Virus record (IMG/VR): IMGVR_UViG_3300032331_000549
Span: 1 to 22,986 of that record
DNA length: 22,986 nucleotides
Reading direction: 5' to 3' (one strand)
Source: a virus
Shown here: positions 2,663 through 21,286 of the stretch, piece after piece
How the letters are laid out: each line of letters opens with the position of its first letter
How positions within the stretch are numbered: the first letter of the stretch is position 1
The notes under the pieces: model-generated
Databases searched by the model: none
What the model was told of the DNA's origin: nothing
Seen by the model: only the letters and a program-made list of their open reading frames with translations
Translations under genes and position numbers: made by a program

Positions 2663-4672
2663 ATGGCAGCAGCAGAGCAAAAAAAGTCGTATGCTGTCGT
2701 CAAGAACTTTACTAGCCTAAACACAAAGGCTAATAGAACGGCGATAAAGGAAGATGAGTTCGCGTGGATTGAGAATGCCATGCCGATTGGTCACGGCAAC
2801 ATCAAGATTATTCCCGCTCAGTCTGCTGTAAAAGACACTGGTGGCAACACCATTGCTTTTGCCAACACAGTCAGCTTTCTAACCTCTGCCAACATTGATG
2901 TTAACGATTACATCCTTGGTTTTGAGGCCAACGGCAGAGCGCAGTACGTCAAGTTAGATGCCAGCAATACCGCCAACATAAGCAATGTAGCTGCTGCTGG
3001 CACGTTCTCTTCTGGCAATGTGTCTGCCGCCCAATACAAGAACCAGCGAGTCATCATTGGTGACCCGGACAAGGGATTGTTTAGTTGGGATGGGGCTAAC
3101 GTCTCCAGCATAGGCGCTGTAGGCTTGATAGGAATTACAAATGCAGGGGCTGGCTTTACCTCAACCCCTAGCGTTACCCTCTCTGCTCCACAAGAGACTA
3201 CCGGCAACGTGCAAGCCACTGCTGTTGCAACAGTAGCAGCCAATGTAGTCACCACAATCACCCTGACAAACGCTGGTCAAGGCTATACGTTACCTCCTAC
3301 CGTAACTATCTCTGGTGGTGGTGCAACTACCAGTGCTACCGCTATATCTTCTTTGGTTACGTTTAAGACAGGCACAGTGTCTGTAGTAATGAACACATCT
3401 GGCACGGGCTACACCAACTCTGCCAACGTCACAGTGACTATCGGAGATGCAACTGGTTGGACAACACGGGCAACTGCCAACGCTATTGTCAGCGGAGGTC
3501 AGATTACCCAGATTTTGATGTCTAACCCCGGTGCTGGATACACATCTACGTCCAACGTAGCGGTGGTCATTGCTGACAGCACTGGTGTACCCGGCTCTGG
3601 TGCTACTGCTACCGGGGTAATCAACCTTGACCAGATAGTAGATGTTTCTACGTTCTCTGGCAGGGTGTGGGTAGCGGCTGGACGTACTGTGTATTACTCT
3701 GCTGCGGGTAGCTACAGCGACTTTACCTCTGTGTCTGCTGGTTCTTTAACTCTGACAGACTCCACGCTGCACGGAAACATTAAAGGCACACTGTCTGCCA
3801 ACAATTTCTTGTACATCTTTGGTGATGACAGCATCAACGTGTTCTCGGATGTGCGGGTTACTACCAGTGGCGCAACCCTGTTTACCAACACCAACGTCAG
3901 CGCCAGCGTAGGCACAAAACGTATATACGCCATCTTTCCGTACTTCCGTTCTGTTCTATTCATGAACGACTACGGTATCTATGCTTTGGTTGGCTCTACT
4001 ACCAGTAAGATTTCAGACCAGCTAGACGGTATTTTCCCGTACATAGACTTCACAAAGCCGGTATCTGCTGGTCAGGTGCTGCTCAACAACATCCTGTGTG
4101 CAGCTTTTTCCTTTACCTACAATGACCCGCTATCTACCTCCCGTGCTATACAGGTAGTGTTTTTTGAGAAAAAGTGGTTTGTCACCAGCCAAGGTAGCCT
4201 GACTTACATTACGTCAGTCCCCTTGTCTGGGCTAATTAACCTGTACGGCACTACCGGCACGGAACTCTACCGCCTGTACAGCGACTCTACAGGCAATGTA
4301 GCCAGCACCATCCGCACGGCCCTGATGCCTATGGGTGACCCTATCCGCACAAAACAGGCTCTGAAGTTTGGTATTGAAGCCACACTTGCTAACGCAGCAT
4401 CTATCAACGTAACCGTAGATAGTGAGAAAGGTTCTAGCCCGGTTTACACGCTAGACAACAGTGTTATTTGGTATAACAATAGCGGTGCAGCTATACCTTG
4501 GATAAATAACAGCAGTGCAATTATTGGTTGGCTTACGTCCAACGGTTACGCCCTGTACAAGAGTGACGCGCAGCAATACGGCAAGTATTTAGGCTTGACC
4601 ATTACAAGTAACAGCGCCAGCTTTGTGTACAACACGTTTGAGTTTGAACATGAATTGAGAGTGAGGTTCTAA
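2663..4672 (+). CDS. Tail nozzle / hub protein, P22 gp10 or T7 gp12 type, with inserted Gly-Tyr-Thr repeats
   Basis: This encodes 669 residues. The start KNFTSLNTKANRTAIKEDEF followed by AWIENAMPIGHGNIKIIPAQ resembles the opening strands of podovirus nozzle/hub proteins (P22 gp10-like packaged-DNA stabilisation; T7 tail tubular protein B). After residue about 330, segments such as GRVWVAAGRTVYYSAAGSYS and NFLYIFGDDSINVFSD look like beta-propeller blades, as in that family. Between about residues 157 and 310 there are four repeats with a G-G-[FY]-T core, which seem to be an insertion. In the virion it would extend the tail tube below the adaptor and hold DNA in. The ATG lies two bases after the adaptor stop (TAATCATGG). 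Confidence 0.7.
   Translation: MAAAEQKKSYAVVKNFTSLNTKANRTAIKEDEFAWIENAMPIGHGNIKIIPAQSAVKDTGGNTIAFANTVSFLTSANIDVNDYILGFEANGRAQYVKLDASNTANISNVAAAGTFSSGNVSAAQYKNQRVIIGDPDKGLFSWDGANVSSIGAVGLIGITNAGAGFTSTPSVTLSAPQETTGNVQATAVATVAANVVTTITLTNAGQGYTLPPTVTISGGGATTSATAISSLVTFKTGTVSVVMNTSGTGYTNSANVTVTIGDATGWTTRATANAIVSGGQITQILMSNPGAGYTSTSNVAVVIADSTGVPGSGATATGVINLDQIVDVSTFSGRVWVAAGRTVYYSAAGSYSDFTSVSAGSLTLTDSTLHGNIKGTLSANNFLYIFGDDSINVFSDVRVTTSGATLFTNTNVSASVGTKRIYAIFPYFRSVLFMNDYGIYALVGSTTSKISDQLDGIFPYIDFTKPVSAGQVLLNNILCAAFSFTYNDPLSTSRAIQVVFFEKKWFVTSQGSLTYITSVPLSGLINLYGTTGTELYRLYSDSTGNVASTIRTALMPMGDPIRTKQALKFGIEATLANAASINVTVDSEKGSSPVYTLDNSVIWYNNSGAAIPWINNSSAIIGWLTSNGYALYKSDAQQYGKYLGLTITSNSASFVYNTFEFEHELRVRF
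3131..3600 (+). repeat. Four degenerate about 40-residue repeats with GxG[FY]T core inside the nozzle gene
   Basis: The encoded repeats begin near residues 157, 200, 240 and 283 of the nozzle protein. Their cores read TNAGAGFTSTPSVTL, TNAGQGYTLPPTVTI, NTSGTGYTNSANVTVTI and SNPGAGYTSTSNVAVVI. Each is followed by a Gly/Ala/Thr linker and a hydrophobic strand. The pattern (turn G-x-G-Y-T, then a V-T-I strand) suggests small beta modules added to the side of the nozzle. The nucleotide copies are diverged, so the repeat is old. Confidence 0.75.
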
Positions 4673-16546: not shown

Positions 16547-16770
16547 AAAAGAAGTCTCCCAACCTTTCTGTTGGCAGAGGTGAGAAGCTATCTGTCAAGA
16601 AGGGTGGTGGTCTTACCGCCAAGGGTAGGGCAAAGACAAATAGGGCTACAGGTAGTAACTTGAAAGCCCCTACTAAGTCTGGCCCCCGTCACAAGTCTTT
16701 CTGCGCTAGAAGCAAGTCTTGGACAGGTGAGCGGGGCAAAGCAGCAAGAAAGCGGTGGGGTTGTCGCTAG
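16543..16770 (+). CDS. Small very basic protein, DUF6321-like
   Basis: This encodes 75 residues, about a third Lys plus Arg. Pattern: KKSPNLSVGRGEKLSVKKGG, GLTAKGRAKTNRATGSNLKA, then SGPRHKSFCARSKSW and the end AARKRWGCR. I associate this with the phage family DUF6321, which is found in many genomes and has no known function. The charge suggests nucleic-acid or virion binding. It overlaps the endolysin by ATGA. Its TAG stop lies in a CTAG that also contains the stop of the opposite gene. Confidence 0.65.
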   Translation: MKKKSPNLSVGRGEKLSVKKGGGLTAKGRAKTNRATGSNLKAPTKSGPRHKSFCARSKSWTGERGKAARKRWGCR

Positions 16771-17318
16771 ACTTTCTGAACAGCTAACTGGTAGTTCTTA
16801 ACAATTACCTTTAACTGTCCGCTGTAAGCCTTTAAGAAGGCATCTACCGCTGCGCCTACGCCAGCACCGCCGCCGTAGTCATCAAACAGCATGATGCCGT
16901 TAGGCTCCAATAACTTAAATGCGAGACAAGCGTCCAGCAGCACCTCTGGGGTCTGGTGGTTGCCATCCACATAAATGAAATCAAACGTAAAGTCCAAGTA
17001 CACCAACTCGCTCAAGGCCTCCCAAGATGTCTTGGCAACTACCTCAACAGCTTGGTCTGTTCCCTTTACTTCCGCTACATTGGCATCAAAGGTCTTGCGT
17101 AGGTCTGTCAGGTCAAGTGCTGCGTGTTCCTCTCCACCCTCAAAGGTATCCACGCATACAAGAGTCCCTTCCTTGTCCAGCATGTTTTGAAGTATCCAGC
17201 ACGTTGACCTACCTTCAAAACTTCCTATCTCCAAGAATGCCTCATTAGAAGGCAGCTTCTTTTGGATGTACTGAAAGTTAGGGATGGTGTTGCTAAACCA
17301 ATCTTGGCTAAATTTCAT
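16767..17318 (-). CDS. SAM-dependent methyltransferase, Methyltransf_24 type
   Basis: This encodes 183 residues. Motif I is FLEIGSFEGRSTCWIL (E30-x-G-S-F-E-G36). The acidic strand-2 end is VCVDTFEGG (D57). The central block FIYVDGNHQTPEVLLDA (D118-G-N-H121) and GIMLFDDY (D146/D147) are standard for this family. Members methylate sugars or small groups, often next to glycosyltransferases. The next gene upstream (18097) is a glycosyltransferase-like one sharing a TAATG junction. The pair could therefore modify surface glycans or phage components; this is inference. Confidence 0.75.
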   Translation of the reverse strand: MKFSQDWFSNTIPNFQYIQKKLPSNEAFLEIGSFEGRSTCWILQNMLDKEGTLVCVDTFEGGEEHAALDLTDLRKTFDANVAEVKGTDQAVEVVAKTSWEALSELVYLDFTFDFIYVDGNHQTPEVLLDACLAFKLLEPNGIMLFDDYGGGAGVGAAVDAFLKAYSGQLKVIVKNYQLAVQKV

Positions 17319-18097
17319 TATGGCGCTGGCAGTAAGCCACCCTCAAAGAGATAGGTTCCAAAGTGGCCTAGACGTACCCACGGTGCTGCGTAAATCTTAT
17401 GCCCGTTAAGACGCGCTACCCGGCAGAAGTGATAGTCCTCTGAAAGCAGCCGCTCTGTCTCTGGCTCTATGCTGCAAGCAAAGTATTCAATGATAGGCTC
17501 TTGGCCTAAGTCACCAGCAAGGATGGTTACGTCATTCTTGTAGCTAGATACTTTGTCTTTGAGGTCATCAAACACTTCACGCTTGATAAGCATAAATCCA
17601 GTGCCGCCTGCCCATATCTCTACAGGCTTGTCTATAGGCACAGTGACTGCACCTTCGTAGCCCACAAGGTTGACCACCAGAGAGCCTGTACGCTTTGGTA
17701 GTTCTTTCCAGTCTGTACCTTCGTGTACTGCTTTCTCTACGCCTTGCCAGTTGATTTCCTTCTTAGGGTAGATACCGCAGATGATGCCCTTGTCTGCATG
17801 AATCATAGGAGGGATGTCATTGGCATCAAACTTAATGTCTGCGTCAATGAACAGCAAATGAGTGCAGGGTGTTTTTAGGAACTGGTGGACAAGAGCATTC
17901 CTGCCACGCTGGATAAGACTTTCGTTAAACATGCTGGAGAAGGACATATCCCACCCGCAGTTCTTCATCACGTTAGTCATAGCAATGAGGCTATTTGTAA
18001 AGTAGCCTGTACACATGCCGCCGTACATAGGAGTAGCCACAAAGATATGTGGTTTAACTTCTTCTGTTTCTTTCTTAACTTTGCCGCCTTTTGCCAT
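17318..18097 (-). CDS. Glycosyltransferase-like protein (GT-A fold)
   Basis: This encodes 259 residues. After a basic N-terminal start (MAKGGKVKKE), strand 1 is HIFVATPMYGGMCTGYF, a feature of several phage GT-like proteins. LLFIDADIKFDANDI has the D85-A-D87 (DxD) metal site. Further on, IWAGGTGFMLIKREVF and the SEDYHFCRVA block (E220-D221) look like the acceptor-side and catalytic-base regions, and H245 follows in RLGHFG. The substrate is unknown. The ribosome site AAAGGATT precedes the ATG. It is encoded directly before the methyltransferase. Confidence 0.7.
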   Translation of the reverse strand: MAKGGKVKKETEEVKPHIFVATPMYGGMCTGYFTNSLIAMTNVMKNCGWDMSFSSMFNESLIQRGRNALVHQFLKTPCTHLLFIDADIKFDANDIPPMIHADKGIICGIYPKKEINWQGVEKAVHEGTDWKELPKRTGSLVVNLVGYEGAVTVPIDKPVEIWAGGTGFMLIKREVFDDLKDKVSSYKNDVTILAGDLGQEPIIEYFACSIEPETERLLSEDYHFCRVARLNGHKIYAAPWVRLGHFGTYLFEGGLLPAP

Positions 18098-18188: not shown

Positions 18189-18509
18189 CTACGAGATGTC
18201 CTCTATCCGTAGGACATACTTCTTTGTCTTGGTTGACTTGCGCCAGCCCCATACTTGTATCTTCCATCCTGCTTCCCTCACTTTCGGTAATAGTTCACTA
18301 GCCATAATCTTCTTTATCCTGTCACTCACCCCGGACGCAGTGGCCTGCACCGCCAATGTTTCATCCCTCTTGATAGCAAGGATGTCGATAAACCCGAATA
18401 GGTCTTGCCGTATCCTTGCGTGAGGGTTCCACTTCTCAACGATAGCCACTGTGTAGCCTTGCTCTCGCAAGACTGCTAACGTTCTACTGGTGGGTGATTC
18501 TTTTGCCAT
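18189..18509 (-). CDS. PD-(D/E)XK-like protein with altered active site
   Basis: This encodes 106 residues. The pattern LREQGYTVAIVEKWN, RIRQDLFGFIDILAIKRDET, LAVQATASG and a C-terminal strand QVWGWRK fits the core of small restriction-like resolvase/VRR-NUC folds. D42 is present, but the usual E-x-K is Q55-A-T57. Members with this Q-x-T are, from memory, common in phages, so the loss may be a family feature and the activity uncertain. The gene follows the SSB-like gene with a TGATG overlap. Confidence 0.6.
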   Translation of the reverse strand: MAKESPTSRTLAVLREQGYTVAIVEKWNPHARIRQDLFGFIDILAIKRDETLAVQATASGVSDRIKKIMASELLPKVREAGWKIQVWGWRKSTKTKKYVLRIEDIS

Positions 18510-18835
18510 CAGAAGGGTACGTCATCATCATCAGCAGCAATGCGAGAGTCCACCCGTGGCTTCTTGTAGGCAGGGGTTACCTCTACTACTTCAGCCTGAT
18601 AAGCCTCACGCTCTTCCATCTTCTTACGCTTAGTCCAGTTGTCTTCTTTGAAAGACAGCAGGCTAGTGCCTTTGCTAGTAGGACGTTGCCAGACAGCAAA
18701 CTTCAGCTTCTCTCCAGCTTTGTAGTCCATCTCTAGGACTATGAAGCCTTTGAAGTCTGGGCCTTTCTCTGACTTCTTTTCCTCTTCAAAGAACGCTACC
18801 CCGCTGCCGGGCATCTCACGATGTTGATTGTTCAT
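18509..18835 (-). CDS. Single-stranded DNA binding-like protein with SSB-type acidic tip
   Basis: This encodes 108 residues from ATG 18835, which has AAAGGAAGAG upstream. A further upstream start (to 18967) would read through a region better explained by the HTH frame, so it is not used. Residues 12-50 (GVAFFEEEKKSEKGPDFKGF, IVLEMDYKAGEKLKFAVWQ) resemble a short OB-like beta domain of phage ssDNA proteins. The last residues, ADDDDVPF, match the acidic Asp-rich, Pro-Phe tip by which SSB recruits host repair and replication proteins. With RecT and YqaJ in the same operon, a role in recombination or replication is likely. Confidence 0.65.
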   Translation of the reverse strand: MNNQHREMPGSGVAFFEEEKKSEKGPDFKGFIVLEMDYKAGEKLKFAVWQRPTSKGTSLLSFKEDNWTKRKKMEEREAYQAEVVEVTPAYKKPRVDSRIAADDDDVPF

Positions 18836-19076
18836 ACTCTCTTCCTTTCTGTAATGAGTAACTGGCGTATTCCTTGCCGTGTTGCTTAACCATCTTTGTA
18901 AAGATGTTGTATCCCTCTTTCCTAAGAACTTCGATATGGGCAGCAAGCCTGAAACTACCATATTCATTTAATGCTTCCAGTGGGGTTAACGACTTGCCTG
19001 CTTCTAGGTGTCTTAGGATATTGTCTCGCTGTGTACCACTTCGGGACTTAGTGGGGACGACTCCGACTTTGGGGAT
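18816..19076 (-). CDS. HTH_39-like winged-helix domain in the -1 frame of recT, without canonical start
   Basis: This frame is open from 19091 to a TGA at 18816-18818 and encodes a domain recognisable as the phage helix-turn-helix family (HTH_39-like): RDNILRHLEAGKSLTPLEAL, NEYGSFRLAAHIEVLRKEGY, then NIFTKMVKQHGKEYASYSLQ. There is no ATG, GTG or TTG in frame before the domain. An ATC at 19074-19076 sits seven bases after a GGAG (19084-19087). Alternatively, a -1 slip at CCCAAAG (19067-19073) would join it to RecT, giving a fusion of about 349 residues. It overlaps the next gene's ATG (18835) by 20 bases. The coordinates given start at the ATC, but the true start is open. Confidence 0.55.
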   Translation of the reverse strand: MPKVGVVPTKSRSGTQRDNILRHLEAGKSLTPLEALNEYGSFRLAAHIEVLRKEGYNIFTKMVKQHGKEYASYSLQKGREYEQSTS

Positions 19077-19864
19077 AGAGGCACTCCAGCTTTAACCATG
19101 TTGGCCTTTATCTTTGCCTTGCCAAGACTATCCAGCGAGTCAATCATGTCCATGTTGCAGACCTTGAGGCTATCTATCTTCTCGGCCTTCAGACCATCTG
19201 GCATCTTGGTGCTGTGATGTATCCGCGCAATCATGTCAACATATCCCTGTAGCCACTCATCAACAGTGTGAAAGCGGTCATAGGGGTTATGGCTTCCGGG
19301 TACATACAAGGCGTAAGCCCCGTCTGGTTCCTGCGGTACTGCTGGTAACTGCACTTCCTCCACCATACCCATGTCTTTGTTAGACGGGGCTGGCTGGAAG
19401 TCTTGTACTTCTTCCGGGGTGTACACACCTACTACACATCCGGGATAAACAGCGCGGATACCTTCTGAGATACACCTAGCCCGTAACATGGCTCTAGGGT
19501 AGTTCTTCCAGTTATCTTTGCTTGCAATGCCTATCTGTTTGGCATGAGAGAGAAGCCAAGTAACGGACAGACTGCCACCACTAGGGTGAGAGAACGTACC
19601 TGTTACCTCTTGGTCTGTGTAGACATCCCACTTCACAAAGCCACCAGCTTGCTGAAACCTAGCAAGCATGGCATCTGCCTTTAGTGCAGGCCTACCTTGG
19701 ATAACGTGGTAGTCACGCATAGCGATAGCAGGGTGCAGTCCCTCGCCTTGGCACAGCAGCATGATAGCTAGTGCCTCTTGCGGATTCTTGAACCCAAACA
19801 TCTTGCTACTGGCAGCTACTTCTGCCATCTGCTGCATGTCGTTGTAGGGAATGATATTGCTCAT
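19013..19864 (-). CDS. recT: RecT-family single-strand annealing protein
   Basis: This encodes 283 residues. The N-terminal half carries the family pattern: KNPQEALAIMLLCQGEGLHP, AIAMRDYHVIQGRPALKADA, and FQQAGGFVKWDVYTDQE. SVTWLLSHAKQIGIASKDNW and YPRAMLRARCISEGIRAVYP follow. RecT anneals complementary single strands and works with a 5'-3' exonuclease; here that is the YqaJ-like gene at 20390-21286 in the same operon. Residues after about 165 are less conserved. The start at 19864 overlaps the stop of a 31-residue membrane peptide (ATGA). The last 17 codons lie in the region of the possible frameshift to the HTH domain. Confidence 0.85.
   Translation of the reverse strand: MSNIIPYNDMQQMAEVAASSKMFGFKNPQEALAIMLLCQGEGLHPAIAMRDYHVIQGRPALKADAMLARFQQAGGFVKWDVYTDQEVTGTFSHPSGGSLSVTWLLSHAKQIGIASKDNWKNYPRAMLRARCISEGIRAVYPGCVVGVYTPEEVQDFQPAPSNKDMGMVEEVQLPAVPQEPDGAYALYVPGSHNPYDRFHTVDEWLQGYVDMIARIHHSTKMPDGLKAEKIDSLKVCNMDMIDSLDSLGKAKIKANMVKAGVPLSPKSESSPLSPEVVHSETIS
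19036..19087 (-). promoter_or_regulatory. Candidate -1 programmed frameshift signal at the 3' end of recT
   Basis: In RecT frame the heptamer is C CCA AAG (19067-19073, codons 265-266), which is of the X XXY YYZ form. Ten bases upstream lies an SD-like GGAG (19084-19087), and twelve bases downstream a hairpin with stem CCACT / AGTGG (19050-19054 with 19036-19040, loop of 9). All three parts occur in known bacterial -1 signals. After the slip the ribosome enters the HTH frame. Confidence 0.45.
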
Positions 19865-20389: not shown

Positions 20390-21286
20390 TCATTTAATAA
20401 GAAAGCGTCTGCTACCGGGCATCTCTCGCATGAACTGCTTGTAGATGTCAGGCATAGCCTCTTGGAACAACTTAGCGTCAAACTTAACGCTTGCCTTGGC
20501 GGACTTCCAAGTAGCCAGCACGTTGCCATCTATAGAGGCCAGCGTAGCCTTGTCTTCCATGTAGCCCTGCACTAGCGTTTGGAACTGGTCTTCCCGCTCT
20601 TCTAAGGCCTTTATTTCCTTCTTGATAGCGTAGAGATACCTGACTGCTTCCTCTACGCTTGCAGAGGCTAGACGGGTGCTTTCTGTGCTTACAGGGTATA
20701 GAGCCTTTGCTTGGTCAACAGACTCAGGGGGGAGAGCAGTACCAGCTTGCACATGCGCCCACAGGACAGCCATCTCCTGTATGTGCTTAAGTTTCATATC
20801 CTCAGTAATTGTTTGAGGAATGAGGACAAACTCTTGACCACCGAATAGCACAGCCAGATAAATCTTCTCGCAACCAAAGACCGTGGCCTCATGCACAAGT
20901 TGAGCCATATCAGCAGGCGGTAGTAGTCCAGCTTCAGCGTCAAATTTACTGCGAGTAGCTGCGTTGTAGTTCTTAGCCTCAACCAGAATTGTTTTACCAT
21001 TTTCATTTCCTGCAAAGTCAAAGTGAGAACGCAGCCATGCTTCCTTGGGGTGAGTCAGGGCATCTTCTATCTTGTGAAGTTCTACCTTCAGCTTGTCCTG
21101 CGCCAGCTTGCCAATGACAGGTTCCATCACATGCCCCATCTGGACAGCTTCCACGTTGGATAGGTCTGGGCGCTCCATCTTTCCCTGTTTAGTCAGGATA
21201 GCTTCGTTAGCCCTACCTTGGGCGGCTAGGCGGCTATCGCCTGACCACCACGCAGAGTTACGGGTTTCTGGTGAAAAGTCAGACAT
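20390..21286 (-). CDS. YqaJ-type viral recombinase exonuclease (PD-(D/E)XK)
   Basis: This encodes 298 residues. Key residues are visible. E55 lies in QMGHVMEPVIGKLAQDKL; D90 in LRSHFDFAGN; and E103-A-K105 in ILVEAKNYN is the catalytic E-x-K. Q129 follows in ADMAQLVHEATVFG. The C-terminal part is helical (KKEIKALEEREDQFQTLVQG). The family contains lambda-exonuclease-type enzymes that degrade one strand of a duplex to make single strands for RecT. The start has GAGGAG upstream and overlaps the previous stop by TAATG. The pair YqaJ-RecT is a known combination. Confidence 0.85.
   Translation of the reverse strand: MSDFSPETRNSAWWSGDSRLAAQGRANEAILTKQGKMERPDLSNVEAVQMGHVMEPVIGKLAQDKLKVELHKIEDALTHPKEAWLRSHFDFAGNENGKTILVEAKNYNAATRSKFDAEAGLLPPADMAQLVHEATVFGCEKIYLAVLFGGQEFVLIPQTITEDMKLKHIQEMAVLWAHVQAGTALPPESVDQAKALYPVSTESTRLASASVEEAVRYLYAIKKEIKALEEREDQFQTLVQGYMEDKATLASIDGNVLATWKSAKASVKFDAKLFQEAMPDIYKQFMREMPGSRRFLIK

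Follow-up and report, generated by a model that had tools for sequence, protein, structure and literature searches.

How is a protein domain made whose reading frame has no start codon? The question is raised by a helix-turn-helix (HTH) domain encoded at the end of recT, a gene for a single-strand annealing protein, in the IMG/VR virus record IMGVR_UViG_3300032331_000549; the window, i.e. the whole stretch analysed, covers its positions 1 to 22,986. The HTH frame (19091-18816, minus strand) has 91 open codons, is -1 relative to recT, and lacks ATG, GTG and TTG before the domain. A sequence-only reading of the locus had pointed this out, and its letters and coordinates were confirmed. The domain, correctly assigned there to the HTH_39 type, matches Pfam HTH_39 (PF14090) with E=1.6e-11 and 44.3 bits, against a gathering score of 21.3, and PF14090 is matched by all 22/22 members of set A5. 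The same reading predicted two products, RecT of 283 residues and a RecT–HTH fusion of about 349 residues, and comparison with relatives strongly supports a -1 frameshift as their source. On this sequence evidence we put at roughly 0.93 the probability that programmed -1 frameshifting near the recT end yields RecT (283 residues) and RecT–HTH (349 residues). The elements involved are the following.

19013..19864, minus strand: recT-like single-strand annealing protein gene, 0 frame, 283 residues (PHROG 561, Foldseek)
19067..19073, minus strand: slippery heptamer C CCA AAG, in frame with recT; 114/120 distinct junctions carry C CCA AAR, A AAA AAG or G GGA AAG in register
19084..19087, minus strand: internal Shine-Dalgarno (SD)-like GGAG, 10 nucleotides (nt) before the heptamer, putative frameshift stimulator
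18816..19067, minus strand: -1 frame segment after the slip, 83 residues, linker plus winged helix HTH_39
19036..19054, minus strand: CCACT/AGTGG hairpin proposed by the sequence-only reading, not supported

IMG/VR, genome contigs and phage records were scanned for relatives by HTH, by recT and by profile, for a total of about 470 loci; the genome-contig scan gave 8 loci only, one of them close, and no intact HTH was recognisable there. The census of junctions includes every distinct recT–HTH_39 junction in the set at that stage (n=120). The HTH frame is -1 in all 120, and in-frame or +1 junctions, sought in the same set, number zero. An error of sequencing or assembly, or a pseudogene in decay, in which recT and HTH, once one gene or two normal ones, were broken by an indel, would be compatible with the fact that one 1-base change restores an in-frame fusion. 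Yet many independent metagenomes show the same arrangement, 120 distinct junctions in all, no in-frame or +1 variant occurs among them, and both the HTH protein sequence and the codon phase are under purifying selection. Error and decay are refuted by these data, and their residual probability is negligible.

A canonical start codon is absent in 100 of the junctions. As a control, HTH_39 genes preceded by other genes carry a start codon in 63/68 cases, and the remaining 5 belong to the present family, recT being cut or missed. In 114 of the 120 junctions a strong heptamer lies in register inside the -1-open segment: C CCA AAG in 100, C CCA AAA in 6, A AAA AAG in 6 (L158, L160, L161, L313, L314, L316) and G GGA AAG in 2. 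The arrangement extends to the divergent phage record MW202825, in which a recT about 50% identical carries CTC CCA AAG, the HTH again being -1 and devoid of a start. Alignment of the relatives upholds the heptamer at 19073-19067, the upstream SD and the usual lack of a start, not the hairpin.

The HTH could alternatively be a separate overlapping gene, translated from a non-canonical AUC start at 19076, as the sequence-only reading had considered as a rarer option. GGAG is placed 7 bases before this ATC and could serve it, and a near-cognate codon is found at the same place in some relatives (offset -3, 11 junctions). In close relatives, however, this codon reads ATT, ATC, AAC or TAG, the last being a stop found in L011-L015, and neither canonical nor near-cognate starts occur in the open segment of 65/114 junctions. 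In 13 junctions from several lineages, with either C CCA AAR or A AAA AAG (including L316), a -1 stop directly precedes the heptamer, and pins the entry into the HTH frame to the slip site. Initiation at AUC also leaves unexplained the invariant C CCA AAR, and its swaps to A AAA AAG and G GGA AAG. On account of the pinned stops, the start-less junctions and the variable ATC, AUC or near-cognate initiation and simple overlap were rejected, and are highly improbable.

By comparison, the signal itself is under selection. The 114 junctions were grouped at <75% identity into 35 clusters. In the C class the codon preceding CCA varies (TCC, TTC, ACC, AGC, CTC and others) but invariably ends in C, and proline is encoded by CCA throughout. 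Given Pro-Lys and the recT codon usage, the probability of finding NNC-CCA by chance in the 31 C CCA clusters is 1.6e-35, a figure which treats as independent clusters that are not fully so. Elsewhere in recT, a single in-register strong heptamer was found in 8,680 codons, and its presence at 114/120 junctions exceeds what chance would give. In 38 non-overlapping pairs, only 2 changes were counted at 266 heptamer sites. Upstream of the heptamer, substitutions peak at recT third positions (161/274); past it, they peak at third positions of the -1 frame, both in the overlap (75/158) and after the recT stop (286/486). By a binned phase test the changeover proceeds gradually during the first 15 nt past the heptamer, and is clear beyond them. 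The linker leading from the slip site to the HTH domain is conserved as protein. The comparison shows a -1 frame which, judging from codon phase, is translated from the heptamer on.

GGAG at 19087-19084, ten bases before the heptamer, has counterparts throughout the family. An SD core precedes the heptamer in 35/35 clusters, versus 28% of control windows, at a spacing usually of 8-10 nt. The predicted pairing with the anti-SD is -7.9 versus -2.9 kcal/mol in controls, and the published Sharma SD rule is satisfied by 107/114 junctions, versus 23% of controls. This bears on whether the fusion might be made by transcriptional slippage rather than by ribosomal frameshifting. Slippage of the polymerase could be favored by the A runs within the six A AAA AAG sites, but the in-register codon boundary, and an SD 8-10 nt upstream, are marks of ribosomes, and we hold a transcriptional origin to be most improbable. 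Programmed -1 frameshifting is supported because the heptamer and the upstream SD are conserved, the heptamer is swapped for other efficient motifs in divergent lineages, the codon phase switches, and some junctions are pinned by stops.

Structure past the slip site is less uniform. The CCACT/AGTGG hairpin (19054-19036), which the sequence-only reading had counted as part of the signal, exists as letters. The minimum-energy fold, as predicted, does not contain it (z = -0.2), and of its five pairs four are each disrupted in 2/10 close relatives. Downstream structure is weak overall (mean z -0.6 over the 35 clusters). The L196/L221/L306/L121 clade does feature a downstream hairpin (z -1.7 to -3.1). 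Aligned members L016, L028 and L030-L048 have a 9-pair stem, GTGTCTCAGG/TCTTGAGACAC, in which 99% of the cells are paired, with one compensatory change. This hairpin begins about 6 nt past the heptamer, is found in that clade only, and is likely an extra stimulator.

Among 64 heptamers assayed in Escherichia coli with stimulators, C_CC.A_AA.G, G_GG.A_AA.G and A_AA.A_AA.G were the most efficient (PMC4066793; review PMC5009743), C CCA AAG ranking highest, with 54% frameshifting in the presence of a pseudoknot (PMC4066793). The three heptamer classes identified at recT junctions are these same E. coli top three.

Several data weigh against frameshifting as an efficient or general route to the HTH. 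The heptamer ranking is that of E. coli, and may not be that of the phage host. No conserved downstream structure was found in the clade of this recT, and the efficiency of frameshifting may therefore be low. The -1 HTH of L049-L055 has no strong heptamer, and is associated with G TCA AAG, an upstream AAGGAGG and an internal ATG. In L056 and L175/L177 an ATG is present in front of the HTH besides the heptamer. In all these relatives a separate HTH product may be made. Moreover, 46 distinct recT junctions are entirely devoid of HTH, hence the family does not depend on the fusion. L340, with GAA AAG and a CTGA overlap, is a further exception.

On a quick recT tree, in which long branches were flagged, and which was used only to count gains and losses of the HTH, the presence of the domain requires at least 14 changes, about 6 of them forced by starred branches. 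This implies that the HTH was probably gained and lost repeatedly across the tree. At the recT 3' end of L143 and L194, C CCA AAG is found 81-84 nt before the stop, along with a short -1 open reading frame (ORF), which has ...APGMSVYGLQHIGGLI.KLRK at its end and may be what is left of an HTH.

In the model proposed, most ribosomes would pass the slip site in frame and complete RecT. In some of them, tRNA-Pro and tRNA-Lys on CCA AAG would slip one base back to CCC AAA, while the internal GGAG, paired with the anti-SD, would hold the slipping ribosomes. Translation would then continue in the -1 frame, giving RecT(1-266)-VGVVPTK...-HTH_39, with a predicted length of 266 + 83 = 349 residues, and the HTH would be produced solely as a RecT fusion. 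The predicted junction SPK|VGVVPTK carries a trypsin site at the junction lysine, and a peptide spanning it would be, for instance, SPKVGVVPTKSRSGTQRDNIL. We infer that the fusion is a minority product, and that it would be a minority subunit in RecT oligomers. The winged helix might tether the annealing complex to double-stranded DNA, such as a phage replication or recombination site, or its own operator.

The HTH tail was modelled by AlphaFold2 as an H-H-H-E-E winged helix, with a predicted local distance difference test (pLDDT) score of 83. The fold matches of the model are winged helices, DNA-binding ones included, but are weak (best E 0.018). The low-confidence model of recT (pLDDT 69) has the Red-beta N-terminal domain 7ujl among its matches (Foldseek probability 0.96, E 0.07), and a sequence search of the PDB with recT found no relative. 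Frameshifting could also be real and serve regulation, with RecT–HTH repressing the recombination operon, or the HTH being freed by proteolysis. HTH_39 is a winged helix of the DNA-binding type, its fold matches include DNA-binding regulators, and stand-alone HTH_39 genes with their own start exist elsewhere in phages. Against this, neither an operator nor a cleavage site was identified, and the linker that joins the slip site to the domain has a conserved protein sequence. A regulatory role is possible, though rather unlikely.

Annealing proteins fitted with an in-frame C-terminal HTH akin to that of Red-beta have been described (PMC8093625; PDB 6m9k), and there is thus precedent for an annealing core with a DNA-binding tail. 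Red-beta and these proteins share with RecT–HTH an annealing core followed by a C-terminal helical domain of the DNA-binding type. Their tail is however described as part of the protein itself, with no mention of frameshifting; the tail of RecT–HTH, by contrast, is HTH_39, and would be reached via frameshift only. The same HTH_39 family is found in stand-alone genes of Rhizobium, Burkholderia and Roseobacter phages; in the loci examined, HTH_39 genes that do not follow recT have, unlike recT–HTH, their own start codon.

In the lambda pair of tail assembly chaperones, gpG/gpGT, the heptamer is G GGA AAG. There too a -1 shift late in the first gene gives a minority of the products an additional domain (PMC5009743), and two functions are joined at a set ratio, as proposed for RecT and RecT–HTH. 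The two systems differ in that G is a morphogenesis gene, and its T domain recruits the tail protein, while recT is a recombination gene with a winged helix as tail.

In dnaX and in the IS3 family, a heptamer is similarly preceded by an internal SD about 10 nt upstream, and A AAA AAG is also found in divergent recT lineages. In contrast, the downstream structure that dnaX and IS3 sites also carry has no counterpart in the clade of this recT, and frameshifting shortens the dnaX product, whereas it would lengthen that of recT. No earlier report of such frameshifting in a phage recombination gene, be it recT or that of another annealing protein, was found in the literature searched, most subscription papers being outside it. 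What is new is a DNA-binding tail made by frameshift, of which most subunits would be devoid.

The source is a virus fragment of 22,986 bases featuring capsid, tail-related and endolysin genes. The junction resides in a phage recombination cassette composed of a RecE/YqaJ-like exonuclease, recT, HTH and a gene resembling that of a single-strand DNA binding protein (SSB). The recT product matches PHROG 561 (RecT-like) with E=8.7e-28, and Pfam RecT with 21.8 bits, just under the cut-off of 24. Two further genes of the cassette are:

18509..18835, minus strand: SSB-like gene, 108 residues, next after recT, overlapping the end of the HTH frame
20390..21286, minus strand: RecE/YqaJ-like exonuclease of the same operon, upstream of recT (PF09588 E=2.9e-07; PHROG 434 E=7e-43)

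The SSB-like gene has a weak match to PHROG 18154, single-strand DNA binding protein (E=0.014), and its GVAF..EKK..KGPD..GF pattern is also found in the gene after recT of relatives. Just past the cassette, 16767-18097 (minus strand) holds a methyltransferase-like ORF (PHROG 2675), along with a conserved ORF of unknown function (PHROG 1574, E 1.3e-46). As for the phage records, the depositors of MW202825.1 (L151) annotated the HTH at 3442-3555 as a 38-residue stub, the true frame having no start; in MW202753, recT (28570-29340) is unannotated.

In a group of relatives lacking the HTH (L179, L188, L222, L231, L397-L428 and others), the recT stop is preceded at 49-52 nt by an in-register C CCA AAC/AAG. 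Their -1 frame continues 128 nt beyond the stop into ssb, and 24/28 changes between recT stop and ssb start fall at -1 third positions (p 1.6e-8). The start of this second tail is not conserved, since at the recT stop GTG is found in some relatives and GTA in others. The tail is conserved, basic, about 59 residues long (RPGDI.GTVSGFHRIGQINIRGFNELRQKRISSDPRQ...) and overlaps ssb; it found no match in a Pfam search. These data suggest that the second group may reach another tail by the same frameshift device. In the L188 family, GGGGAGGGATCGAACCTCCCAAAC is located about 10 nt before the heptamer; its region includes an SD-like GGGAGG complementary to CCTCCC running into the slip site, and resembles, in reverse complement, a tRNA T-arm.

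The 3' end of recT could be a conserved frameshift port, adding either HTH_39 or an unrelated basic tail of about 59 residues to a minority of subunits, and fixing their ratio in mixed oligomers; we give this broader view an even chance. If true, recombination genes rely on the device by which tail chaperones set their stoichiometry. In tailed phages, genes for tail and capsid are the main ones known to undergo programmed frameshifting; in the present case it would operate, widely conserved, in a recombination module. The predicted product of 349 residues is missed by annotation, as the HTH stub of MW202825 exemplifies. For the choice of RecT proteins in recombineering, cloned recT genes would either be without the tail or give two products. 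The finding also raises the question why only part of the annealing subunits would bear a DNA-binding domain.
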